A DNA stretch of 64,000 bases from Bryobacteraceae bacterium. GTDB taxonomy: Bacteria > Acidobacteriota > Terriglobia > Bryobacterales > Bryobacteraceae. Where the stretch lies: contig JABAQT010000019.1 of assembly GCA_019187195.1 (NCBI GenBank), positions 61,783-125,782 on the forward strand, read 5' to 3'. Position numbers and translations under genes: made by a program. Below the pieces are notes generated by a model. That model saw nothing but the letters and a program-made list of their open reading frames with translations. It made no database searches and was not told the DNA's origin. Position 1 is the first letter of the stretch, and each line of letters begins with the position of its first letter. Below, in pieces: positions 50,869 through 63,395 of the stretch.

Positions 50869-50890
50869 TCCGCAGTGGGGTGTGTCTCAA

Positions 50891-53800
50891 ATGAACGGCC
50901 AGGCGAAACTTTTGTATCAATTAATCCTTACGTGGCTGGCCGGCGCCAGCCTCTTATTTGGACAGGCTCGCGACACCGCGTCCCTGTCCGGGACGGTAAC
51001 CGATGCCCAGGCCGCCGTGGCTCCGGGGGCGCAGGTCACCATAACTAACGTCGCCACGGGGTTGGTGCGCAGCGCCGCCGCGGACGACAATGGCAGATTC
51101 CTGTTTCCGCTGCTGCCGGTAGGCAGTTACAGCCTCGTGGTGGAACTGCCAGGGTTCCGTAAGTACGAACGCCTGGGCATCCTCTTACAGGCGAATGAGA
51201 ATATCCGGGTGGATCCCGTGCTGGAAGTGGGCAACGTGCAGGAAAAGGTGACAGTGGAGGCCATGGCTCTGGCTGTGGACACGCGCTCGGCGACGCTGAA
51301 CACCACCGTGGATTCGAAGCGCGTAGTGGATCTGCCACTGAACGGCCGTAATCCGGCGGACCTGGTGCTGCTGGCTCCCGGCGTAACCTCGTCGGCCGGC
51401 AACAACACCGGCAACACCGGCGACCAGTGGCGGCCTCATGGACAGAAACAGGTCGCCATCAACGGTTCCCGGAACAATAACCTGCGATATACACTCGACG
51501 GCGGGACCAACATGGATGACCTCGAGAACGAGAATATGGAATTCCCGTTTCCCGACGCCGTTCAGGAGTTCAGCGCCCAGACCAGCAACATGGGCGTGGA
51601 GCAGGGAGGCCAGTCGGGCGGCTCCCTGAACGTGGTAACCAAGTCGGGAACCAATGAACTGCACGGAAATGCTTTCTGGTTCGTCCGCAATACCGCTCTG
51701 AACGCCACCAACTTCTTCTCGCGCCAGCAGGACAAGCTGAAACGGAACCAGTTCGGCTTCACCCTGGGCGGTCCGTTTATCAAGAACAAGCTCTTCGGCT
51801 TCGTGGGTTATCAGAAGCTGATGATCCGGCAGGCGGCCGGCAACAGCCGCAACCAGACTCTGACGGCGGCGGAGCGGCGAGGCGACTTTTCAGGAAACTC
51901 GATCCACTTGTTCGACCCTCTGAATCCAGGCCAGCGATTCCCGAACAACACCATTCCGGCCTCCCGCTTTTCCAAGGCGGCGTTGAAACTGCTGACGTAT
52001 TCGCCGTTGCCCGAGGCCGACGGATTTGTATACTACACGATCGCCCAGCCGGACAACGGATTGCAGGGCATCGGCAAACTCGACTATGTGCTCAATGCCA
52101 AGCACAGCCTCGTTTTTCGCGTCCTCGAAAGCGACAGCAACCAGCCTTTCCACTCGCCGCCGGACAACATCCAGGCCGCGCGATATTCCGGCTATCAGGA
52201 CGGACGCAGCGCCACTCTGGGCCACACCTATGTCATGAACGCAACCACCGTGGTGCACACCCAGATAACCGGCGCTCACCAACTCGCGAACATCGCCACC
52301 GATTTCCCCATCACCATGGCCGATTTGGGGGTCAGCCTGACGCCCATGGGCAACCACATTGATATCTCGATGACCCAAAGCGGCGTGTCGTACAACCAGC
52401 CTTTGCACAGCATCCGGTTCGGCAGGGGCAGCATCGAGGTGCAGCATGATTGGAACAAGTCCAAGGGCAGCCACAATCTCGTGTGGGGCGTAAGCGCGGT
52501 ACGAAAACGCTTCAACAACCACACCCTTTACCACAGTTCGGGACAGTTTCAGTTCGACGGCCATGTCACCGGATATGGCGATCTGAGCGGCTTCGACCGG
52601 GCGGATTTCATGCTGGGCGGCTTTTCGTATTTCTCGCAGAACAGCGGCGAGTTCGAGGAGCGCCGCGGAACGCAAACAGGATGGTTCTTCGGTGACACAT
52701 GGAAAGCGCGCCCCGGCCTGACGCTGAACTTCGGAATCCGCTTCGAGCCTTACGGGCTGTTCGGCGACCTGTTGGACCGCAACCAGACTTTCGACCTGGC
52801 CGCCAACCGGGCGGGCATCCGCTCGAAGGTTTACAAGAACGCTCTTCCCGGGCTGTTCTACCATGGCGACGCGAAGCCGGCCGGATACGGCGGCGGCAGT
52901 ACGTTCGGCAAGTCGGTGACGGATCCGGACTACTGGAACAACTGGGCTCCGCGGTTCGGGTTTGCCTGGGATCCGTTCAAGGACGGCAGAACCAGCGTGC
53001 GCGGCGGTTACGCGATCTTCTACGACACTCCGCCGATCAACTCCCAGAACGACGCCAACAATGTGACGCCCTTCAGCTACAGCGTCGAGTATACCGACGG
53101 GTTGTTTGACAATCCGTTTCTGGGGCGTGAATCCCAGAACATCTTTCCCGTTCCGGCGAACAATCATGATGTGCCGTTTCCGACTCCGCTGTTCACCATG
53201 GTGCTGGACAAGAAGTTCATCACGTCCTACACGCAGAACTGGAGCCTGACGGTGGAGCGCGAAGTGCTCCCCAACACGCTCTTCCGGATCGGATACGTGG
53301 GAACGAAGGGCACGCACCTGTACGCGATGTGGGATCAGAACGCGCCTATTTACAACACGGCGCTGACGCTGTCACAGAACCGTGCCACGGTGGACGAGCG
53401 GCGTCCAATCAATAACTTTCAGACCATCAACAGGTGGATGCACGGTCTGAACTCCGGCTATAACGCGCTGCAGGTATCGGCGGACAAACGCTACAGCCGG
53501 GGATTCACGGTGAGCGCCATCTACACCTGGTCGCATAACCTCGATTACGTCTCCCGCCAGTCGTGGGGAGGCGCTTTCGGCATCAATAATCCCTCGAATT
53601 TCTTCTTCTCGCGCGGCAATTCGGATTATACGCGGCAGCACCGCTTCGTCACCAGTTTCGTGTGGGACCTGCCGGGCTTGCGGAGAGGATCGGTGGCGGA
53701 CGCGATACTCGGCAACTGGCGGTTGGGCGGCATTCTCACAATGCAAACCGGGAGGCCGTTCAGCGTGGGCGCAACCAACAACCCCATGGCCGGGGCGGGA

Positions 53801-54175
53801 TCGGCGCGCGCGGACCTTGTGGGGGCGGGTTATCCGGTGCTCGATCCGGGCCGTTCGAAGGGCGAGAAACTGGCGGCTTATTTCGACAAGGCGCGGTTCG
53901 TCAATCCCGCTCCCGGCACCTACGGCACTCTGGGGCGAAACACGATCTTCGGCCCCGGCTACGCCAACACGGATGTGTCGCTGATCAAAGGGTGGCGGCT
54001 GCCCGTCTTGCGCGAAGCCGGGCGGGTGGAATATCGCTTCGAGGCATTCAACCTGTTTAACGCGACCCATCTCGGTCTTCCGGTGACTGGAATGACGAAC
54101 CCCAACTTCGGAAAGATTCTATCGACCGACGGCGACCCCCGGATCCTTCAAATGGCGCTCAAGGTGTTCTGGTAA
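50891..54175 (+). CDS. TonB-dependent receptor with carboxypeptidase-regulatory N-domain
   Basis: About 1,094 residues. Signal-like hydrophobic N-terminus (LLYQLILTWLAGASLLFGQ), CarboxypepD_reg domain (ASLSGTVTDAQAAVAPGAQV; GSYSLVVELPGFRKYERL), plug-type sequence VVDLPLNGRNPADLVLLAPG and NLRYTLDGGTNMDDL, LNVVTKSGTNELHGNAFWFV, and a barrel ending in ILQMALKVFW. The GGGG at 50877-50880 fits the ATG at 50891 better than the GTG at 50882. Ligand unknown. It is flanked by the two cytochrome-type cassettes (DUF1549/1553/1501 upstream, DUF1592/1552 convergent downstream). Confidence 0.9.
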   Translation: MNGQAKLLYQLILTWLAGASLLFGQARDTASLSGTVTDAQAAVAPGAQVTITNVATGLVRSAAADDNGRFLFPLLPVGSYSLVVELPGFRKYERLGILLQANENIRVDPVLEVGNVQEKVTVEAMALAVDTRSATLNTTVDSKRVVDLPLNGRNPADLVLLAPGVTSSAGNNTGNTGDQWRPHGQKQVAINGSRNNNLRYTLDGGTNMDDLENENMEFPFPDAVQEFSAQTSNMGVEQGGQSGGSLNVVTKSGTNELHGNAFWFVRNTALNATNFFSRQQDKLKRNQFGFTLGGPFIKNKLFGFVGYQKLMIRQAAGNSRNQTLTAAERRGDFSGNSIHLFDPLNPGQRFPNNTIPASRFSKAALKLLTYSPLPEADGFVYYTIAQPDNGLQGIGKLDYVLNAKHSLVFRVLESDSNQPFHSPPDNIQAARYSGYQDGRSATLGHTYVMNATTVVHTQITGAHQLANIATDFPITMADLGVSLTPMGNHIDISMTQSGVSYNQPLHSIRFGRGSIEVQHDWNKSKGSHNLVWGVSAVRKRFNNHTLYHSSGQFQFDGHVTGYGDLSGFDRADFMLGGFSYFSQNSGEFEERRGTQTGWFFGDTWKARPGLTLNFGIRFEPYGLFGDLLDRNQTFDLAANRAGIRSKVYKNALPGLFYHGDAKPAGYGGGSTFGKSVTDPDYWNNWAPRFGFAWDPFKDGRTSVRGGYAIFYDTPPINSQNDANNVTPFSYSVEYTDGLFDNPFLGRESQNIFPVPANNHDVPFPTPLFTMVLDKKFITSYTQNWSLTVEREVLPNTLFRIGYVGTKGTHLYAMWDQNAPIYNTALTLSQNRATVDERRPINNFQTINRWMHGLNSGYNALQVSADKRYSRGFTVSAIYTWSHNLDYVSRQSWGGAFGINNPSNFFFSRGNSDYTRQHRFVTSFVWDLPGLRRGSVADAILGNWRLGGILTMQTGRPFSVGATNNPMAGAGSARADLVGAGYPVLDPGRSKGEKLAAYFDKARFVNPAPGTYGTLGRNTIFGPGYANTDVSLIKGWRLPVLREAGRVEYRFEAFNLFNATHLGLPVTGMTNPNFGKILSTDGDPRILQMALKVFW

Positions 54176-54193: not shown

Positions 54194-55546
54194 TCAGCCC
54201 AGATCCGACAGATACTCCAGTGTGCCGTCGCTATCGCCGATGCGATCCACGGTGACGCCCGCGCGGTCGAGCAGGGCCACGAACAGATTCGCCATGGGGG
54301 TCTCGGCGCGGTACTTGACGTGGCGTCCGGGCTTGAGCGCTCCGTTGCCTCCGCCTACCAGCAGGAGCGGAAGATCATTGTGGGTATGGCGGTTGCCGTC
54401 GGCGAGACCGCTGCCGTAGAGAATCATCGAGCTGTCGAGGAGCGAGCCATCGCCGTCGGGTGTGTTCTTCAGTTGCTCGATCCACACGGCGAACTGCTCG
54501 ACGTGGAAGCGATTAATCCGGCGCACTTTCTCGACCATCTCCGGGTTGTTGCGGTGATGAGTGAGGGGATGGTGGGCGTCGGAGATGCCGATCTCGCGGT
54601 AGGCGCGCGTGCTTCCCTCGCGGCCCATCATATGGGTGATGATGCGCGTGGCATCCATCCGGAAGGCCACGGTCATGAGATCGAACATGAGCTTCGAATG
54701 CTCGCGGTAGTCAAGCGGCGCGCCCCCGGGCTTGGGAAACGGCGGAGGCATTCTCCGCGCGTCCTTTTCGTTCGCCTCGATTCGCTTTTCGATCTCTCGC
54801 ACCGAATAGAGATACTCATCGAGTTTTCGCTTGTCGGTGGCGCCGAGGGTGGTCTGGAGCGATTGCGTCTGATCCACGACGGAATCGAGAATGCTCTTCC
54901 GCATCTCGCGCCGTATGGCGCGCGACTTCGCGTCTTCCTCGTCATCACCCGAGCCGAAGAGGCGCTCGAAGACGATGCGCGGATTGATTTCGGGTGGGAG
55001 CGGGGAATTCTCCGTGCGCCAGGCGAGGTTGTTCGAGTAGGCGCAGCTATAGCCGGAATCGCAGTTGCCCACGAGACGGCCGTCCTCGAGGCCGAGTTCC
55101 ATCGAGGCGAACCGGGTTGCGGCGCCGATCTTCTGAGCGGCCACCTGGTCGACGGAAACGCCGATGCTGATGTCGGCGCCGGCGGTCTTTCGCGGGTGCA
55201 TCCCCGTGAGGAAACTGGATGCCGCGCGGGCGTGGTCGCCCGGACCATCGCCGAGAGCCCGGCCGCCGTTCTGTGTAAGACCGGTCAACACCAGGGAGTG
55301 GGCGCGGTGCGCTTCCATGGGCTCCATCACGCTCTTCATCGAGAAGTCCGAGCCTTCCTCGCCGGGAATCCATTCGGACATGATAATGCCGTTTGGAACA
55401 TAGACAAACGCCATGCGCGTGGGGGACTTGGCGGCCCGCGCCGGAGCCGCCAAGGCGGGGATCATCGAGTCGAGCAGAGGCAACCCGACGGCCGCGCCGA
55501 GACCACGCAGGAACATTCTTCGATCAAGATGTTTGCCGGTAATCAT
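54194..55546 (-). CDS. Tat-exported DUF1552 protein
   Basis: 450 residues. Twin-arginine leader (LDRRMFLRGLGAAVGLPLLD) followed by DUF1552 hallmarks: MAFVYVPNGIIMSEWIPGEE, SLVLTGLTQNGGRALGDGPG, HARAASSFLTGMHPRKTAG, NPRIVFERLFG, RKLDEYLYSVREIEKRIEAN, and LDSSMILYGSGLADGNRHTH. Structurally analogous to DUF1501 (phosphatase-like); function unknown. The ATG at 55546 has AGAGGG about 10 nt upstream; the upstream TTG start would add 3 residues. It follows the DUF1592 gene by 34 nt on the same strand and is the last gene of that unit. Confidence 0.9.
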   Translation of the reverse strand: MITGKHLDRRMFLRGLGAAVGLPLLDSMIPALAAPARAAKSPTRMAFVYVPNGIIMSEWIPGEEGSDFSMKSVMEPMEAHRAHSLVLTGLTQNGGRALGDGPGDHARAASSFLTGMHPRKTAGADISIGVSVDQVAAQKIGAATRFASMELGLEDGRLVGNCDSGYSCAYSNNLAWRTENSPLPPEINPRIVFERLFGSGDDEEDAKSRAIRREMRKSILDSVVDQTQSLQTTLGATDKRKLDEYLYSVREIEKRIEANEKDARRMPPPFPKPGGAPLDYREHSKLMFDLMTVAFRMDATRIITHMMGREGSTRAYREIGISDAHHPLTHHRNNPEMVEKVRRINRFHVEQFAVWIEQLKNTPDGDGSLLDSSMILYGSGLADGNRHTHNDLPLLLVGGGNGALKPGRHVKYRAETPMANLFVALLDRAGVTVDRIGDSDGTLEYLSDLG

Positions 55547-55580
55547 TACAGTCAACCCTCTACAACGTGTACACAGCTTA

Positions 55581-57833
55581 TCACGATTTTCCCGCCGCTT
55601 CGCCGCGCCTCATCCGGAAGGGCGGACTCTTGACGATCTCGAGAACAAGCCTTGAGAAGCGATAATCGTCCGCGGCCAGGCGGCTCACGATCTGGCGCAC
55701 GAAGGTCCGGTCGCTCTTCTCGAGCCCCCGCCCAAGCGCGTAGGTGAGCATCTTCTCGGTGAGGCAGCGGGCGAAATCATCCTTGTTGGTGAGCAGAATC
55801 CGCTTGAGCTCGGCGGGCGTGGAAAACGTCTTGCCGCCAGGAAGGGCGCCGCTCGCGTCGACCGCGAAGTTGCCGTCTTTATCGCGCCAGGAGCCGATGG
55901 CGTCGTAGTTTTCGAGCCCAAAGCCGAGGGCATCCATCTTCAAGTGGCAGGCCGCGCACATCGGATTGGCGCGATGTTTTTCCATCTGCTGGCGAAGAGT
56001 TCCCGTGATGCCGACGCCGGAATCCTCGAGATTCGGCACATTCGGGGGTGGCGGAGGCGGCGGCGCGTTAAGAAAATTCTCGAGCAGGTACTTTCCGCGG
56101 ATAACGGGCGAAGTGCGCGTGGGATAACTGGAAACGGTGAGGACGCTGGCCATGGTGATGAGCCCGCCGCGCTGGGGTGTGCTCAATTCGACGCGCCGGA
56201 ACCCGCTGCCGGTGACGCCGGGAATTCCATAGTGCTTCGCCAGCCTCTCGTTGAGAAAAGTATAGTTCGCATCGATGAAATCGAGAATGCTGCGGTCCTC
56301 TTTCACGACCGATTCGAAAAACAGCATTGTCTCCGTTTTCATGGCGGCCCGCAGTTCGTTATCGAAGGCGGGAAATTTCTCGGGCGCGGGTTTGACTTCA
56401 TTGAGGTTGCGCAGTTCCAGCCACTGGCCCACGAAGTTGCTGGCGAAGGCTGAAAACCTGCCGTCGGCGAGCATGCGGCGAGTCTGCTGCTCGAGGATGG
56501 CGGGGTCGCGCAGGCGTCCCTTCGATGCGAGTTGGAACAGTTGCTCATCGGGCATGCTGCTCCAGAGGAAGTAGGAAAGGCGGGTGGCGAGTTCGAAGTC
56601 GTTGAGGGGGTGGGCCGCGGCGCCATTCGGGCCGGGATCCCGCTCGATGCGGAAGAGAAATTGCGGCGATATGAGAATCGCCTCGAGGGAATAGCGCAGC
56701 GCCGCCTCCGGCGCCTCTCCCTTCGAGCGGGCGAGCAGGGCGTATTTCAGGAATCTTTCGGTTTCGATCGCGGTGACCGGGCGGCGGAACGCGCGGCGCG
56801 CGAAATTCTCAACGATGCGCCGCATGCAGGCATCGTCATAGTTGCCTGGATATTCGCCGCAGATGAGGATGGTCTTGTGGCTGGGCGGAGGAGTGAACGG
56901 GGCCTGATTATAGGGACCGCGCACGTCCACATATTCGACCAGCGGACCTTTCTCGCCGGTGTACGGCGTGCCCGAGGGGTCCACGATGACGGCGCTCAGC
57001 TTATGAACGCCGGCCTTGGGCCGGATCGTGAAATCGTGCAGACGCGGCTTGTCTTCCAGCGTGAAGACCGGAGAGAGTTGCGGGGAGTCCTCATCCACCC
57101 GCGTTCGCAGTTGAAGGCCCTCCTCTTCCTTCGAGCGGCGGCCGGTGATTGCAACCCGGATTTCGTAGTCGCCCTCGACAGGGAAGGTGTGAGTCACCTC
57201 GATGGAGCCGGCCGGGCCGTCGTGTTTGACGCGGTCGGAGCGGTAGCGGTCCGAGATCACCTGATATTGCCGGGGCAGGGCGAGGGCCGCTTTCGCGACG
57301 CGGTGAGCGGCCGCCATGTACTGCTCCATCAAAGCAGGAGAGACGGAGAGCACATCGCCAATGTTGTCGAAGCCGTACCCGGAATCGTCCACGGGAAACT
57401 CGACCGCGGGATGAAGGTCCAGTCCCACCAGGTCGCGGATGGTGTTGTCGTATTCGGCGCGGTTCAGACGCCGGGCGGTTACCCGCCCCGGGTCGTGACC
57501 GCCGGCTCTGTCGTAGCGGTCATATTCCGCCTTCAGCCAACCGGTAAGAGCGGCCGTTTCGGCCGCGGAAGGACGCGGCATCCCTTTGGGAGGCATCTCG
57601 CCGTTGCGCAATTTCGCAACCACCTTGTCCCAGACTTCCTGGTCGGCAAGCACAAGATCCGCGTTCTGGAATTTCTCGAGGTTGAGGCCGCCGGCCCTCG
57701 CCTTTGCGCTGTGGCACATGGTGCAGTGCCGCTTGAGGAAAGGCTGGACATTCGTGCGGAAACCGGCGTTGTCCGCCGCGGGAAGGACCGCTCCAAAGAG
57801 AAGAACAGCGGCGGCAACCTGTATGAGTTTCAT
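55581..57833 (-). CDS. Secreted DUF1587/1592/1588/1585 cytochrome-type protein
   Basis: 750 residues. Signal peptide (MKLIQVAAAVLLFGAVLPA) and then a PSCyt-type N-terminus with RHCTMCHSAKARAGGL (CXXCH), DUF1587 (ARRLNRAEYDNTIRDLVGLD), DUF1595/1592 (FARRAFRRPVTAIETERFLK; ATRLSYFLWSSMPDEQLF; NFVGQWLELRNLN), DUF1588 (QRGGLITMASVLTVSSYPTR) with NPMCAACHLKMDALGFGLEN (second CXXCH), and DUF1585. A membrane-bound or periplasmic multi-domain cytochrome of unknown electron partner. Follows the GH31-like gene by 53 nt on the same strand. Confidence 0.92.
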   Translation of the reverse strand: MKLIQVAAAVLLFGAVLPAADNAGFRTNVQPFLKRHCTMCHSAKARAGGLNLEKFQNADLVLADQEVWDKVVAKLRNGEMPPKGMPRPSAAETAALTGWLKAEYDRYDRAGGHDPGRVTARRLNRAEYDNTIRDLVGLDLHPAVEFPVDDSGYGFDNIGDVLSVSPALMEQYMAAAHRVAKAALALPRQYQVISDRYRSDRVKHDGPAGSIEVTHTFPVEGDYEIRVAITGRRSKEEEGLQLRTRVDEDSPQLSPVFTLEDKPRLHDFTIRPKAGVHKLSAVIVDPSGTPYTGEKGPLVEYVDVRGPYNQAPFTPPPSHKTILICGEYPGNYDDACMRRIVENFARRAFRRPVTAIETERFLKYALLARSKGEAPEAALRYSLEAILISPQFLFRIERDPGPNGAAAHPLNDFELATRLSYFLWSSMPDEQLFQLASKGRLRDPAILEQQTRRMLADGRFSAFASNFVGQWLELRNLNEVKPAPEKFPAFDNELRAAMKTETMLFFESVVKEDRSILDFIDANYTFLNERLAKHYGIPGVTGSGFRRVELSTPQRGGLITMASVLTVSSYPTRTSPVIRGKYLLENFLNAPPPPPPPNVPNLEDSGVGITGTLRQQMEKHRANPMCAACHLKMDALGFGLENYDAIGSWRDKDGNFAVDASGALPGGKTFSTPAELKRILLTNKDDFARCLTEKMLTYALGRGLEKSDRTFVRQIVSRLAADDYRFSRLVLEIVKSPPFRMRRGEAAGKS

Positions 57834-57886: not shown

Positions 57887-59521
57887 TCAGAATCGCAGGT
57901 TTACAATAATGTCTGAGCGAGCCGGCGCATGGATGCCGACGTGTACGGCGCGGTTGGCGGCATCGTAGCGCCACTGGCCGGGGCCGGCCGGCCCGTCCGC
58001 CTGTGTTTGCCGGAAGGGACCGCCTTCCACCTGCTCCACGGATTTCGGCTGGTCCATGTTGTGGACAACCCACTCGTAATCGCGGTCCACCTTGGATTCC
58101 ATCTCGAGGCGGTAGATATCGGCGGCGGGACCGGCGTGGGCCTGGGAGTAATCGATGGCGCCGGGCTCGTAGAGAAAGAACTCTCCCCCGCTTTTCGGAT
58201 AGTAGTGCAACTGCATCGGATCAGATTCCGATACGCCGCCGAGCGGGAGAATGGATCCGTTCTTCACGAAAACGATGACGCCGCCGGCGGGCGTGTCCAC
58301 GGTGACGGCCCGCCGGCCCTTCTCTTCTTTCCCGGTGTCCCAGTTGGTCCAGATGCCGAGCGGCAGGTAGACGCGCTTTTGCGGAGCGCCGTCACAGACG
58401 GGGGCGACCAGCAACTCATCGCCAAGCAGAAACGAATCGGTGTGTTCTCGCGCCTCGATATCATGCGGGTACTGGTGAAACATGGGATGAAGGATGGGAT
58501 ATCCGCGCGCGCGCGCCTCGTCGGCATAGGCGAGCAGGAAGTAATTGAGGCGTTTACGGAAGGCTCTGGTTCCGGCCACGATGTCCGCTTTACTGCCTTC
58601 GAAGGCGAGCGGCTGGGAGTCCTGAAATATGGGCGCGAGGGCGCCGAGATTCGCGGCGCGCCGGAAGACGTCGAGTTCCGCCCCCCTGTAGCGCGCAAGA
58701 TCGAACGCGGGCATGAGGATTCCGGAGAGGCTCGCGTGAACCAGGGCGCGCGCTTCGCCGCAAAGAAGATCCTGCCCGGTCTGGTCGAAGGCAGGCAATC
58801 GGGACGCCCCTCGCGGCAGGCGGGGACCGGGAATCATTTCGAGGTCGCGCGGCGCGGGGTCGGGGATGGGCCCGTCCACCTTGAGCCGCTCCTCCCAGAT
58901 TTCCTTGAGCGAAGGACCGAAGGCGAAGTAATATTCCAGCCGTTCCATGCCGCTGCCGGCAATCCGCACGCTGCCGCTTTTCGATTTCGCCATGTCGAAT
59001 TCGAATGCGCCGGGAGTCCCCATCCACAACGCATAGCCGCGCGTGCTGACGAAGAAGGGTGTTTCGGTTTTCAGGGCCAGGCCGCGGGCGCCGGCAACGG
59101 CTTGGGGTCTCGCTCCGAGGCCGAAGAATTCTTCGCCGGGATGAGCCGCCAGTTCGAGGAGCGAGCCGCCCCCGTGCACGCTCGCCGCCGTTTCGGAATA
59201 GAGGCCGATGCTCGAGGGCAACCGCACCGCCAGCAGGCCCTCGTGGCGGCTGACGTGGAGAATGAGGGCATCGGTTTCGAACCGCGCGCCGGCGGGGGTG
59301 GCCGACACGTCCACCTGAAGCACGCTGGCGGCTATTGGCCGGCGGGCGGGACCGGCAAGCCCGCGCCGCACGCGGAACGTCGATGGAGTGACAAACTCCA
59401 CCTCCATCTCCGGCCCCGCCTCCAGCTTCAGGTGAAATGTATTCTGCTTCCGTTCCCAAAAAACGGAGTGTTGCGCCTGGAGGCTCAAGGCCGCCAATGC
59501 CAACCAAACAAGACGAATCAC
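57887..59521 (-). CDS. Shortened GH31-like protein
   Basis: 544 residues with signal peptide (MIRLVWLALAALSLQA). The N-terminal GH31 beta-sandwich (EEFFGLGARPQ; FFVSTRGYALWMG; LEYYFAFGPSLKEIWE) and the C-terminal domains (DSFLLGDELLVAPVCDGAPQ; VYLPLGIWTNWDTGKE; NGSILPLG) are easy to follow. The intervening catalytic barrel is reduced to about 150 residues, versus roughly 300-350 normally. The region that should hold the nucleophile (DxxE type) is replaced by DLEMIPGPRLPRGASRL, and the GD of the acid/base region reads GE. This looks like an inactive or strongly altered family member. The GTG start overlaps the M24 gene stop. Confidence 0.8.
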   Translation of the reverse strand: MIRLVWLALAALSLQAQHSVFWERKQNTFHLKLEAGPEMEVEFVTPSTFRVRRGLAGPARRPIAASVLQVDVSATPAGARFETDALILHVSRHEGLLAVRLPSSIGLYSETAASVHGGGSLLELAAHPGEEFFGLGARPQAVAGARGLALKTETPFFVSTRGYALWMGTPGAFEFDMAKSKSGSVRIAGSGMERLEYYFAFGPSLKEIWEERLKVDGPIPDPAPRDLEMIPGPRLPRGASRLPAFDQTGQDLLCGEARALVHASLSGILMPAFDLARYRGAELDVFRRAANLGALAPIFQDSQPLAFEGSKADIVAGTRAFRKRLNYFLLAYADEARARGYPILHPMFHQYPHDIEAREHTDSFLLGDELLVAPVCDGAPQKRVYLPLGIWTNWDTGKEEKGRRAVTVDTPAGGVIVFVKNGSILPLGGVSESDPMQLHYYPKSGGEFFLYEPGAIDYSQAHAGPAADIYRLEMESKVDRDYEWVVHNMDQPKSVEQVEGGPFRQTQADGPAGPGQWRYDAANRAVHVGIHAPARSDIIVNLRF

Positions 59522-60690
59522 AGTTCTAATAACGCTTCCTGAATCTCACCGGTTACGATGGCCTCTTTCGCGCCGATGTAAACGTTCACTTCGGAGCGGA
59601 TGCCGAAATGCTCCAGGTAGACGCCGGGCTCGATGGAGAAGCAGATTTGGGGAATCAACTGCCGCGTATCGTGGCTCTCGAGGTTGTCCATGTTAGCCCC
59701 CGCCCCATGGACTTCGACGCCTATGGAATGCCCGGTGCGATGGACGAATGCGTCGCCGTAACCTTTATCGGTGATGAAGCCGCGCGCGACGTCGTCCACT
59801 TCGAAGCCGCGCAGGGTACGGCCCGCGGCGATGCCGTCCCTGATGAACTCCACCGCCGCGTCGCGGGCGCCCTTGACCACGGCGAAGACCTTCTGAATCC
59901 CGGCGGGGATATCGCGGCCGCAATACCCGGTCCAGGTGATGTCGTAGTAGACGGCGTCGGGCTGGGTGAGTTTGGCCCATAGATCAATCAGCACGACATC
60001 ACCGGAGCGGATGGCGGCGGCGCTGGCGGGTTCGGGTTCATAGTGGGGGTTCGACGCATTGGCATTCACCGCCACGATCGGGCCGTGATCGGTGAACAGC
60101 CCGTGGGAGGCGAAATATTCGCGCAGGAAACTGGCCACCTGGTATTCGTCGATCGGCGTGCCGCCGCGGATGGCTTCCGAGATCTTCTGGAAGGCGGCGC
60201 GGCGGGCGGCGTCGACGCGTCTTCCGGCTTCGACGTGCATATCGAATTGGGCTTCGCTCCAGCGGGCTTCGAAATACTGCACAAGGCCGGCGGAACTCAC
60301 CACCTCGATATCGAAGCCGCGCACGAGGTCGATCATTCCGCCGTCGACGAGGGAGATGTAGGGGATGGCGCATTCGGGCGACCACTGCATCGCCACCTTG
60401 CCTACTCCGGCGAGCATCTCGCGGAGACCGTCGCACATGCTCTGCCAGCTCGAATAGACCTGCCGCCGGCCGGGCAGGCCGTCAAGCATACCCGGCTCGA
60501 CGCGATGGACGAGGGCCAGCGGGTCGCCCACGGCGGGGATGAAGTAATACCAGCGGCGCGTGGGGGTGCGATGCGGGTCGAAGCGGAGGACGCGGTATGC
60601 GAGCGGATCACGCTGATGGTGGTCATAAAACAACCAGCCTGGAATTCCCTGCGCCCGCAGGGCGTCCTGTATCTCCGCGAGTGGAACCAT
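59518..60690 (-). CDS. M24-family metallopeptidase (Xaa-Pro aminopeptidase-like)
   Basis: 390 residues, no signal peptide. N-terminal creatinase-like domain (GIPGWLFYDHHQRDPLAYRV), then the pita-bread domain with metal ligands in SGDVVLIDLWAK (first Asp), AVYYDITWTGYC (second Asp), HRTGHSIGVEVHG (His), CFSIEPGVYL (Glu) and FGIRSEVNVYIG (Glu). It would remove N-terminal residues from Xaa-Pro peptides in the cytoplasm, consistent with the POT-type peptide importer encoded directly before it (the stop codon TAG abuts the ATG). Its stop overlaps the GTG of the GH31-like gene. Confidence 0.92.
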   Translation of the reverse strand: MVPLAEIQDALRAQGIPGWLFYDHHQRDPLAYRVLRFDPHRTPTRRWYYFIPAVGDPLALVHRVEPGMLDGLPGRRQVYSSWQSMCDGLREMLAGVGKVAMQWSPECAIPYISLVDGGMIDLVRGFDIEVVSSAGLVQYFEARWSEAQFDMHVEAGRRVDAARRAAFQKISEAIRGGTPIDEYQVASFLREYFASHGLFTDHGPIVAVNANASNPHYEPEPASAAAIRSGDVVLIDLWAKLTQPDAVYYDITWTGYCGRDIPAGIQKVFAVVKGARDAAVEFIRDGIAAGRTLRGFEVDDVARGFITDKGYGDAFVHRTGHSIGVEVHGAGANMDNLESHDTRQLIPQICFSIEPGVYLEHFGIRSEVNVYIGAKEAIVTGEIQEALLEL

Positions 60691-62190
60691 CTATCTCACT
60701 CCTCCCATGAGTTTCGTAATCGGCCTGGCAAAGACGGCAAGCAGGAGTCCGGCGATGATGGCAAACCCGCCGACGGCTCCGAACAAGGACGTAAGCGGCA
60801 GCGTGGTGTAGAGCCCGGCCATGCGCCCGCCGAGGTAGTTGCCAATGGAAATGGAGAGAAACCACACGCCCATCATGAGGCCGGCCACGCGCACGGGGGC
60901 GAGTTTGGTGATGGCGCTGAGACCCACCGGGCTGAGGCAGAGTTCGCCGAAGGTGTGGAGCAGGTAGGTGGCGGCTAGCCACAGCGGACTTACCTTGGCG
61001 CCCTTGGCCGCGAGGCCCGCCGGCACGATAAGGATCAGAAAGCCGAGGCCGACGAAGACCAGGCCCCAGGAGAACTTGGTTGGGCTCGATGGTTCACGGG
61101 AGCCCATCCTGATCCAGATCCAGGCGAATACCGGGGCGAGCGTCCAGATAAACAGCCCGTTCAGGGATTGCATCCACGCCGCGGGATACTCCCAACCGAG
61201 GATACGGTTGTCCGTGCTCTTGGCGGCGAAGATATTCAATGTGGAACCGGCCTGCTCGAAGACGGACCAGAAGAGGCAGGACGCGGCGAACAACACGCTG
61301 ATGACGATGAGCCGTTTGCGCTCCGTGGAATCCCAATCGCCGGCCGTGAACAGCCAGCCGAAGAATGCGATGGTGAGGAGGAGCAGAGCCGTCCCCCCGG
61401 CCTCATTGAGGCCCTTGGCGGTGATGTCGAGCATCCCCGTTGCGTCCGCGGCCATGGCGGCGATGAACAGGGCGGCGATGGCGGCGAGGCTTTTCAGGAG
61501 CACAGCCCTCTGCCGTGAATAATCTTCGGCGGAAGTCTTCACGGGATGCAGTCCGGCTTCGCCGAGGAAGCGGTAGCCGTAAAGATATTGCACGACACCC
61601 GCCACCATGCCGATTCCGGCCAAGGCCATTCCGGAGCGCCACCCGTAACTGCGCGCAACCAGGCCGCAGAAGATGGGCGCGAAGAATGCCCCCATGTTGA
61701 TCCCCATGTAAAAGATGGAGAAGCCGGCATCGCGGCGCGGATCGCCCTGGCGGTACAGTTGGCCGGCGATGGTGCTGATGTTGGGCTTGAGCAGGCCGGT
61801 GCCGGCAATGACCGTTACCAGGCCCGTGTAGAAGACCGCTTCGCCCGGCACGGCAAGCATCAGATATCCGGCGGCGATGATGATGCCGCCCATGAGGACG
61901 GACCGGCGCTGGCCGAGAATGCGATCGGCGATCCACCCGCCGGGCAGGCTCACCATGTAGACCATCGACGTGTAGAGACCGTAAATGGCGCTGGCCTTCA
62001 CCACATCGAATCCGAGGCCGCCGCCGGTGGTTTCCGCCGTCATGAAGAGGATGAGCAGGGAGCGCATGCCGTAGTAGCCCCAGCGCTCCCAGAACTCGGT
62101 GAAGAAGAGAGTCGAGAGTCCGAGCGGATGGCCGAAGAACCGGCGGTCTTCACCCGGCATATGCGATGCCGTGGACACGCCCGCGTTCAT
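60691..62190 (-). CDS. POT/PTR-family proton-dependent peptide transporter
   Basis: 499 residues with 12-14 predicted helices. Family motif FFTEFWERWGYYGMRSLLIL (ExxERxxYY type) near the N-terminus, GGWIADRILGQRRSVLMGG, FSIFYMGINMGAFFAPIFCG (the PTR2 signature region) and LCLSPVGLSAITKLAP in the C-terminal half. Imports di/tripeptides with protons across the inner membrane. The ATG at 62190 overlaps the ABC ATPase stop codon (ATGA). Peptides imported here may be processed by the adjacent M24 aminopeptidase. Confidence 0.93.
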   Translation of the reverse strand: MNAGVSTASHMPGEDRRFFGHPLGLSTLFFTEFWERWGYYGMRSLLILFMTAETTGGGLGFDVVKASAIYGLYTSMVYMVSLPGGWIADRILGQRRSVLMGGIIIAAGYLMLAVPGEAVFYTGLVTVIAGTGLLKPNISTIAGQLYRQGDPRRDAGFSIFYMGINMGAFFAPIFCGLVARSYGWRSGMALAGIGMVAGVVQYLYGYRFLGEAGLHPVKTSAEDYSRQRAVLLKSLAAIAALFIAAMAADATGMLDITAKGLNEAGGTALLLLTIAFFGWLFTAGDWDSTERKRLIVISVLFAASCLFWSVFEQAGSTLNIFAAKSTDNRILGWEYPAAWMQSLNGLFIWTLAPVFAWIWIRMGSREPSSPTKFSWGLVFVGLGFLILIVPAGLAAKGAKVSPLWLAATYLLHTFGELCLSPVGLSAITKLAPVRVAGLMMGVWFLSISIGNYLGGRMAGLYTTLPLTSLFGAVGGFAIIAGLLLAVFARPITKLMGGVR

Positions 62191-63395
62191 TTGCGTTCCT
62201 TCCGCCACTCGATTCTTGCCTGCAGATCCACCACTCCGGCGATCTCTTTCGGATCCACGACCGTGAACGATACCACATCATCGAGCCAGTCCTGGCTGTG
62301 GCCATCGGCATGCTGCATGGCCACGGTGAGCGTGTATTCGTGCCTGGCCAGCCAGCATTCGAAGCTGAAGTCCAATTCTAGCAACTCGCCTGGAGCGAAC
62401 TCGCCGAGCGAGACACGCTCGACGCGCGTGTTGGTGCCGTAGACGTCGATGCCGAGGCGGTTGCGGATGAGCAGGCCGGCGACTGGTTCGCGCGAGGCGG
62501 AATGGAACCGGGCCTGAAGGCGGATGGTGACGCGCTCGCCGCGCAATATGGCGGCGGCTGGATCTCCCGATGAATTCAGGATGCGAATATCCGTAATGCG
62601 GCTGGTTCCGTCGCCGTGGCGAAAACTGCCGCCGGGCGCGGAGGGCTCGCCGTTGGCGGGCAGTTGGGCGCGCTGCCGTTCGTGCACCAACCCGACATAC
62701 CGGTTGACAACGTCGCCCGGCGAGCCGGTGGCCTCCACCCGGCCGTTGAGGAGGAAGACAGCGCGATCGGAGAGCCGTTTCACGAGGCCGAGATCGTGGG
62801 AGACGAAGAGCGTGGTGACTTTGCGGGCTTTCAGCTCCTCGAACTTGCGGACGCAGCGGCTCGAGAAGATGGCGTCGCCCACGCTGAGGGCTTCATCGAC
62901 GATGAGTACGTCGGGTTCGACATGGATGGCGGTCGAGAAGGCAAGCCGCACGTACATCCCGCTCGAGTATTCCTTCACGGGGCGGTCAATGAATTCGCCG
63001 ATTTCGGCGAAGGCTTCAATCTTCGGGAAGGCGCGCTCCATCTCCTTGCGGGAGAGGCCCATGATCTCGCCGCTGAGGAAGACGTTCTCGCGGCCGGAAA
63101 ATTCGGGATTGAAGCCGGCGCCGAGTTCGAGCAGCGCCGCCACTCGTCCTTCGGCGCGGACGCGCCCGCTGGTGGGTTGGAGGATGCCGCTGACGATCTG
63201 GAGAAGGGTGCTTTTCCCCGATCCGTTCGGCCCCACGACGCTGACGATTTCACCGCGCCCGACGGCGAAACTGATGTCCTTGAGCGCCCAGAAATCGGTG
63301 TGGCGCTTGCGCGAGGCGGGGAGCGCTTCGATCAACCGGTCGAGGGGGCGGCGGTAGAGGCGGTAGACTTTCGAGACGTGCTGAATGAGAACCAC
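62187..63395 (-). CDS. Wzt-like ABC transporter ATPase with C-terminal glycan-binding domain
   Basis: 402 residues. N-terminal ATPase of the polysaccharide/teichoic-acid export class (DFWALKDISFAVGRGE): Walker A GPNGSGKST at 55-63, signature YSSGMYVRLAFSTAIH, Walker B DVLIVDEALSVGD, and SHDL switch. The last 150 residues form a beta-sandwich (SRITDIRILNSSGDPAAAIL; LELDFSFECWLARHEYTLTV) like the Wzt C-terminal domain, which binds the nonreducing end of O-antigen. The membrane partner (Wzm-type) is not next to it. A GTG start at 63395; the predicted promoter (63440-63411) supports it. First gene of a tightly packed minus-strand unit. Confidence 0.92.
   Translation of the reverse strand: MVLIQHVSKVYRLYRRPLDRLIEALPASRKRHTDFWALKDISFAVGRGEIVSVVGPNGSGKSTLLQIVSGILQPTSGRVRAEGRVAALLELGAGFNPEFSGRENVFLSGEIMGLSRKEMERAFPKIEAFAEIGEFIDRPVKEYSSGMYVRLAFSTAIHVEPDVLIVDEALSVGDAIFSSRCVRKFEELKARKVTTLFVSHDLGLVKRLSDRAVFLLNGRVEATGSPGDVVNRYVGLVHERQRAQLPANGEPSAPGGSFRHGDGTSRITDIRILNSSGDPAAAILRGERVTIRLQARFHSASREPVAGLLIRNRLGIDVYGTNTRVERVSLGEFAPGELLELDFSFECWLARHEYTLTVAMQHADGHSQDWLDDVVSFTVVDPKEIAGVVDLQARIEWRKERK

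Follow-up and report, generated by a model that had tools for sequence, protein, structure and literature searches.

This study examined a 64,000-nucleotide stretch of contig JABAQT010000019.1 from a Bryobacteraceae bacterium, hereafter the window, which carries a gene for a half-barrel protein derived from glycoside hydrolase family 31 (tGH31; Table 1). The gene is a single uninterrupted frame, and it lies in a tight operon, both as an earlier sequence-only reading of this DNA had stated: the stop of the upstream M24 metallopeptidase gene lies 4 bases inside the tGH31 start, and the genes for a POT-family symporter and a Wzt-like ATPase abut or overlap further upstream. The M24 peptidase has no obvious signal peptide. 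Its residues D236, D250, H321 and E354 are present in 59 of 59 loci and E367 in 58 of 59, these five being the metal ligands of the family.

Table 1 The tGH31 gene with its parts, its upstream neighbours, and proteins found behind M24 at other loci. Positions refer to the window unless a locus is named; residues are those of tGH31 unless another protein is meant.
Feature	Position	Strand	Remarks
Half-barrel GH31-derived protein (tGH31)	57887..59521	minus	544 aa, GTG start 59521, stop 57887
Probable signal peptide, residues 1-17	59471..59521	minus	hydropathy test
N-terminal beta-sandwich, residues 20-203	58913..59464	minus	galactose-mutarotase-like, PF13802 below cut-off
Barrel remnant and lead-in helix, residues 204-340	58502..58912	minus	stub of strand 1, strands/helices 6, 7, 8
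Junction of missing segment, residues 230-237	58811..58834	minus	alignment; exact edges uncertain
Proximal C-terminal domain, residues 341-428	58238..58501	minus	PF21365
Distal C-terminal beta-sandwich, residues 429-544	57890..58237	minus	model and structure overlay
Conserved patch, residues 439-484	58070..58207	minus	28-row alignment
M24 metallopeptidase	59518..60690	minus	metal ligands kept: D236, D250, H321, E354, E367
POT-family oligopeptide:H+ symporter	60691..62208	minus	TIGR00924 above cut-off
Wzt-like ABC transporter ATPase with Wzt_C domain	62187..63395	minus	domain match
PQQ-repeat proteins behind M24	L094 6462-8009, L097 3479-4963, L103 3465-5018		PF13360 E 4.8e-13 (L094)

With regard to the domain layout, the Pfam model PF21365 (Glyco_hydro_31_3rd) matches tGH31 at residues 340-425 (E 2.3e-20) and is matched by all 28 aligned half-barrel proteins. 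The N-terminal model PF13802 is sub-threshold in the window protein (E 0.011) and is matched at E ≤ 0.01 by 18 of the 28. Together with a structural overlay that begins at residue 20, these matches agree with the earlier description of the flanking domains as intact. The barrel model PF01055 gave no match to the window protein at E ≤ 0.1 and is matched at E ≤ 0.01 by just four of the 28 half-barrel proteins. A simple hydropathy test, for which start codons were picked by hand near the aligned start, found a hydrophobic N-terminus in 27 of these proteins, which supports the signal peptide that had been proposed; on this prediction, tGH31 is probably an exported protein.

The absence of half of the catalytic barrel, the main claim of the sequence-only reading, is borne out by an alignment of the 28 half-barrel proteins with 19 full-length GH31s of the phylum (47 rows), and amounts to approximately 220 residues. 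The interval from G202 to R322 measures 93-120 residues in the half-barrel proteins versus 310-354 in the full-length enzymes, and the missing segment, judged by length, is common to all 28. Against the full-length sequences, a small gap follows M229 and a long gap follows P236, the exact edges being uncertain. The remnant itself counts about 117 residues (224-340) instead of the roughly 150 first estimated, and the numbering of its strands (a stub of strand 1, then 6-8) follows GH31 topology.

The loss includes the catalytic residues. A WNDMNE segment is present in eight of eight listed full-length rows and absent from seven of seven listed half-barrel rows; its aspartate is described, in PMC1249566, as the catalytic nucleophile of GH27 and GH31, on strand 4. 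A profile match of tGH31 to the dextranase FjDex31A (E 5.6e-52 over the retained domains) ends at residue 265 of the dextranase and restarts at 529; the unmatched residues 266-528 contain D412, the residue mutated in entry 6jr8, if sequence and entry numbering agree. The nucleophile region had thus been correctly noted as missing. The acid/base motif had been read as a GD changed to GE, which proved to be a misalignment: WTGD, on strand 6, aligns with LPAF at residues 242-245, in a region that is variable across the 28 rows. The GE dipeptide (255-256) was rejected as a retained acid/base, since it sits about ten residues downstream, in the following predicted helix, at a position that reads GD, SD, AD and others in relatives. 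Alignment, tree and model support a deletion of about 220 residues that took out barrel strands 2-5 together with the catalytic machinery.

A structure prediction compared with GH31 enzymes, one of the checks suggested alongside these claims, gave a confident result. The AlphaFold2 model of tGH31, built with 28 sequences, has a mean pLDDT of 93.3 and a pTM of 0.90, the sole segment below pLDDT 50 being residues 13-18. Its best overlay is on 7f7q, the alpha-N-acetylgalactosaminidase of E. faecalis (VIA; Z 32.2, rmsd 3.3, 522 of 544 residues), and spans chain residues 62-878, which leaves about 295 enzyme residues without a counterpart; among the best 50 matches listed, overlays on GH31 enzymes reach Z 26.4-32.2. 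A model of the half-barrel segment in isolation predicts that it folds independently (pLDDT 89.2, pTM 0.82). In VIA it overlays 7f7r chain residues 276-618 (144 of 146 residues, Z 11.9, rmsd 3.6) and 5dl0 (142 of 146 residues, Z 12.9, rmsd 3.6), a Z of about 12 not being decisive for a helix-rich fragment. Its Foldseek E-values are weak, the best, to GH31 entries, being 0.016; in both lists the top entries are GH31 enzymes. The model predicts with high confidence a compact scaffold in which beta-sandwich domains are arranged around a half-barrel.

Within the same family, 117 of 200 genomes match tGH31 at E ≤ 0.001, and 74 of them carry a close relative (E ≤ 8.4e-38), a hand count from the match table, in which the next match elsewhere, at 3.9e-22, is a frame of full-length size. 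From these 74, 40 loci were read with their flanks, L004 was read as well, and the other 33 are known from the match table alone. The remaining 43 genomes match less strongly, for the most part in long frames like those of full-length GH31s, although one of them, G029, holds a half-barrel copy truncated at the end of its contig. In the genus of the window, all 11 sampled genomes have a close relative. The 28-row alignment comprises the window protein and 27 of 32 retrieved sequences; L002 (the window gene itself), L032 and L033 (duplicates of L003 and L004), L004 and L029 (ambiguous residues) were left out. A scan of genome contigs yielded two relatives at 83% identity, which correspond to L003 and L004. 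The aligned proteins are 34-83% identical to the window protein, and internal stops occur in none of them. Rough Nei-Gojobori estimates of dN/dS, at 0.10-0.23 in five tGH31 pairs, three of them sharing sequences, indicate that the tested pairs are under purifying selection; one pair of the neighbouring M24 genes gave 0.14.

In a 65-row tree built on the columns shared by half-barrel rows, with L126 and L130 left out of a set of 20 loci, one branch (SH-aLRT 100, no bootstrap) separates 29 half-barrel rows from 36 full-length GH31 rows, so that a single deletion event suffices. Among 396 genomes of the phylum, 82 have tGH31 profile matches at E ≤ 1e-20; at most three candidates were scored per genome, three genomes of the window's family are among those listed, and the 294 genomes without a match lie outside the list. 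Except for the window gene, the listed matches are longer frames or cover part of the profile only, and the same layout was not seen outside the family among the matches listed. One 557-aa frame (G355, L130) was rejected, as it matches profile positions 253-474 only and differs in layout from tGH31. In plasmid records, 161 match tGH31 and none has a single place covering 80% of the query; of the eight listed, one is unannotated and the others are annotated as GH31, alpha-glucosidase or TIM-barrel proteins.

There is good support for reading tGH31 as a GH31 derivative without catalytic function: the nucleophile segment is missing in all 28 proteins, the tested pairs point to purifying selection, and the family has conserved residues of its own. 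As the protein has been preserved since an ancient loss of the cutting residues, it very probably does something new. We consider it somewhat probable that tGH31, as a derivative of GH31, is exported and non-hydrolytic and has gained a new conserved site, with a putative ligand- or partner-binding role in a nutrient-uptake operon.

In 39 of 40 loci, the gene next upstream of tGH31 is M24, and in all 39 the tGH31 start nearest to the M24 stop lies -13 to +28 bases from it, a choice of start that favours small values. Further upstream, the 40 loci contain a POT gene in 24 cases, an SSS symporter gene in seven and a Wzt-like ATPase gene in 28; at least one of the three is found in 34, and neither POT nor SSS in nine. 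Three loci with no transporter or ATPase gene have little upstream sequence (L059, 4.4 kb; L064, 1.5 kb; L065, 2.8 kb), and three others (L061, L071, L072) have more than 7 kb upstream with no POT, SSS or Wzt-like ATPase gene. In the seven loci with an SSS sodium:solute symporter (L049, L051, L052, L056, L062, L066 and L070), it replaces POT; the L051 protein matches PF00474. No glycan-specific enzyme occurs among the conserved neighbours of tGH31.

Of the 200 genomes of the family, 189 have M24, and the core operon exists without tGH31 in 18 readable loci. These come from 20 M24 loci without a close tGH31 relative, picked by hand from the M24 matches and not at random, in which a profile search for a divergent tGH31 recovered only L102, at a contig end; L099, which ends 207 bases after M24, is unreadable. 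On an M24 tree of 59 loci, the presence of tGH31 changes at least seven times, which fits repeated loss; without L099 there are still seven changes, over 40 loci with and 18 without the gene. The operon is common without tGH31, so peptide uptake can do without this protein. In three of the 18 loci, the place behind M24 is taken by a PQQ-repeat protein (about 515 aa; Table 1) that is unrelated to tGH31. Two tGH31 copies are located away from M24, at L072 and L131. The latter (G086:C84, 2499-4055) is a second half-barrel copy of G086 inside an 813-aa open frame, with no M24, POT, SSS or Wzt-like match within its 8 kb.

These observations leave room for a reading in which tGH31 acts outside the cytoplasm in a separate role, with no functional link to peptide uptake. 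Its place after M24 would then stem from a single founding insertion together with vertical descent and translational coupling. Descent, and not function, may indeed account for the fixed place: the 18 readable loci retain the core operon in the absence of tGH31, with at least seven presence changes, the slot after M24 holds another protein in three of these, and the transporter varies (POT 24, SSS 7, neither found in 9 of 40). Nevertheless, 39 of 40 loci keep the M24 neighbour, with tGH31 starting in overlap with its stop or close behind it despite identities of 34-83%, and just two copies away from M24 were seen. We regard this reading as unlikely.

The half-barrel proteins have conserved residues that distinguish them from full-length GH31s. 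Across the 28 rows, 38 columns are invariant, and those within the conserved patch are H439, Y440, P442, E447, F449, E452, Q460, H462, A463, P465, R471, R480 and W484; E473 and E475 are each present in 25 of 28. At 28 positions, among them R53, H262, Y332, Q350, D368, E369, H439, Q460, H462, R471, E475 and W484, the residue is kept in 24-28 of the half-barrel rows and is found in 0-2 of the 19 full-length proteins. The invariant residues R53, Y332, E369, T392, H439, Y440 and F449 occur in none of the 19, while Q350, D368, P465 and R471 are shared with one and Q460, H462 and W484 with two. E447 (28 of 28) is shared with three, and E475 with none. Three residues of the patch, E452, E473 and R480, are also frequent in full-length GH31s (11, 7 and 10 of 19). 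At many columns of the distal domain, gaps occur in 4-7 of the 19 full-length rows, and the contrast there may therefore partly reflect weak alignment.

Many of the conserved positions fall on neighbouring predicted strands between residues 436 and 486. On the strands predicted at 457-466, 469-476 and 480-486 they are spaced two apart (460/462, 471/473/475 and 480/482/484), a spacing which suggests that the conserved residues of this region probably share one face of a sheet. Such a set of residues would not be expected in a decaying protein, and from its conservation we infer a new, putative binding site. The same polar residues could instead constitute a new active site, tGH31 then being a neofunctionalised enzyme. 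H439, E447, H462 and R471 are present in 28 of 28 rows and E475 in 25, against 0, 3, 2, 1 and 0 of 19 full-length rows, and the probable placement on one sheet face would suit such a site. However, no known catalytic arrangement was recognised, many full-length GH31s share the nearby E452, E473 and R480, and conserved sheet faces suit binding as well as catalysis. A new active site appears decidedly unlikely.

A third reading would be that of a split enzyme, in which another protein supplies the missing barrel half in trans and restores glycosidase activity. There is a precedent in the TIM-barrel glucanase EngU, which, according to PMC5725463, is thought to consist of two half-barrels whose co-expressed parts restore activity. 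In the window genome, which is 97.8% complete, searches with PF01055 and PF21365 revealed no other GH31: the PF21365 match is tGH31 itself, and the sole PF01055 match is a 712-aa GH36 protein. The acid/base motif, expected on the retained side, is lost as well, which makes this reading very improbable. The GH36 protein (L001, G000:C24, 520-2658) matches Melibiase at E 6.8e-56 and Glyco_hydro_36N. A pseudogene or assembly artefact is refuted for the window gene and has a negligible probability in spite of an in-frame stop in one of 74 copies (G067), given the 28 stop-free proteins, their dN/dS and their position as one group on the tree; an assembly deletion, which the sequence-only reading had named as a possible refutation, is excluded by the relatives in 74 of 200 genomes and the gap common to all 28 aligned copies.

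For the preferred reading, an exported and non-hydrolytic protein with a new site, we propose the following sequence. A GH31 glycosidase lost about 220 internal residues long ago and became a half-barrel protein; descent from GH31, loss of the catalytic half, conservation and the place beside M24 are established by the data above. The residues conserved in the family, many of them in the C-terminal domains, would form a new binding site. The protein would act as an extracytoplasmic scaffold or as a binding protein for a ligand or partner, and may hold or display a peptide, glycopeptide or sugar close to a POT or SSS importer; the M24 peptidase would then process the imported peptide in the cytoplasm. 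With regard to the ligand, tGH31 had been suggested to be a glycan-binding derivative. The derivative part of that suggestion stands. Glycan binding is a possibility, no more plausible than a partner that is a peptide, a glycopeptide or a protein, because the neighbours are M24, peptide or solute transporters and a Wzt-like ATPase. A more far-reaching version, in which a once-halved glycosidase, now exported, carries a new site on its C-terminal beta-sandwich, is translationally coupled to a dipeptidase and its importer, and represents a new class of extracytoplasmic receptor or enzyme for peptides or glycopeptides, is tentative and rather doubtful.

The tGH31 family shares its domain order and fold with GH31 hydrolases such as FjDex31A (6jr6), 7f7q and YicI (1we5), namely an N-terminal sandwich, barrel strands 6-8, and proximal and distal C-terminal domains. 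In contrast to these enzymes, it lacks about 220 residues of the barrel along with both the nucleophile and the acid/base, and has conserved residues of its own. It resembles dead glycosidases such as chitinase-like lectins in keeping a glycosidase fold for a presumed non-catalytic role. Such proteins typically retain a complete barrel and carry point substitutions at the active site, whereas tGH31 is unusual in that half of the barrel is gone. We recognised no description of a half-barrel GH31-derived family among the open-licence papers listed by our searches.

Barrels are often said to arise from half-barrels by duplication. The hypothesis that they evolved from half-barrels is mentioned in PMC1249566, and a barrel made of two half-barrels is described in PMC5725463. 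HisF and EngU/GH148, as described there, resemble tGH31 in using half a TIM barrel as a structural unit, but in those proteins two halves make up a full active barrel, whereas tGH31 has a single half between beta-sandwich domains. This natural family appears to have moved in the opposite direction, an entire enzyme barrel having given way to a half that was then kept. Its sequences provide a ready set for testing how a barrel can lose one half and still fold. The family also cautions that a protein annotated as "glycoside hydrolase family 31" solely from its C-terminal domain may not be an enzyme.

Downstream of tGH31, the minus strand of the window encodes a pair consisting of a cytochrome-c/DUF1592-1587-1588-1585 protein and a DUF1552 protein (54194-57833). 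The protein encoded at 50882-54175 (1097 aa) is an outer-membrane beta-barrel protein (PF25183) whose N-terminus carries a carboxypeptidase-regulatory-like domain.
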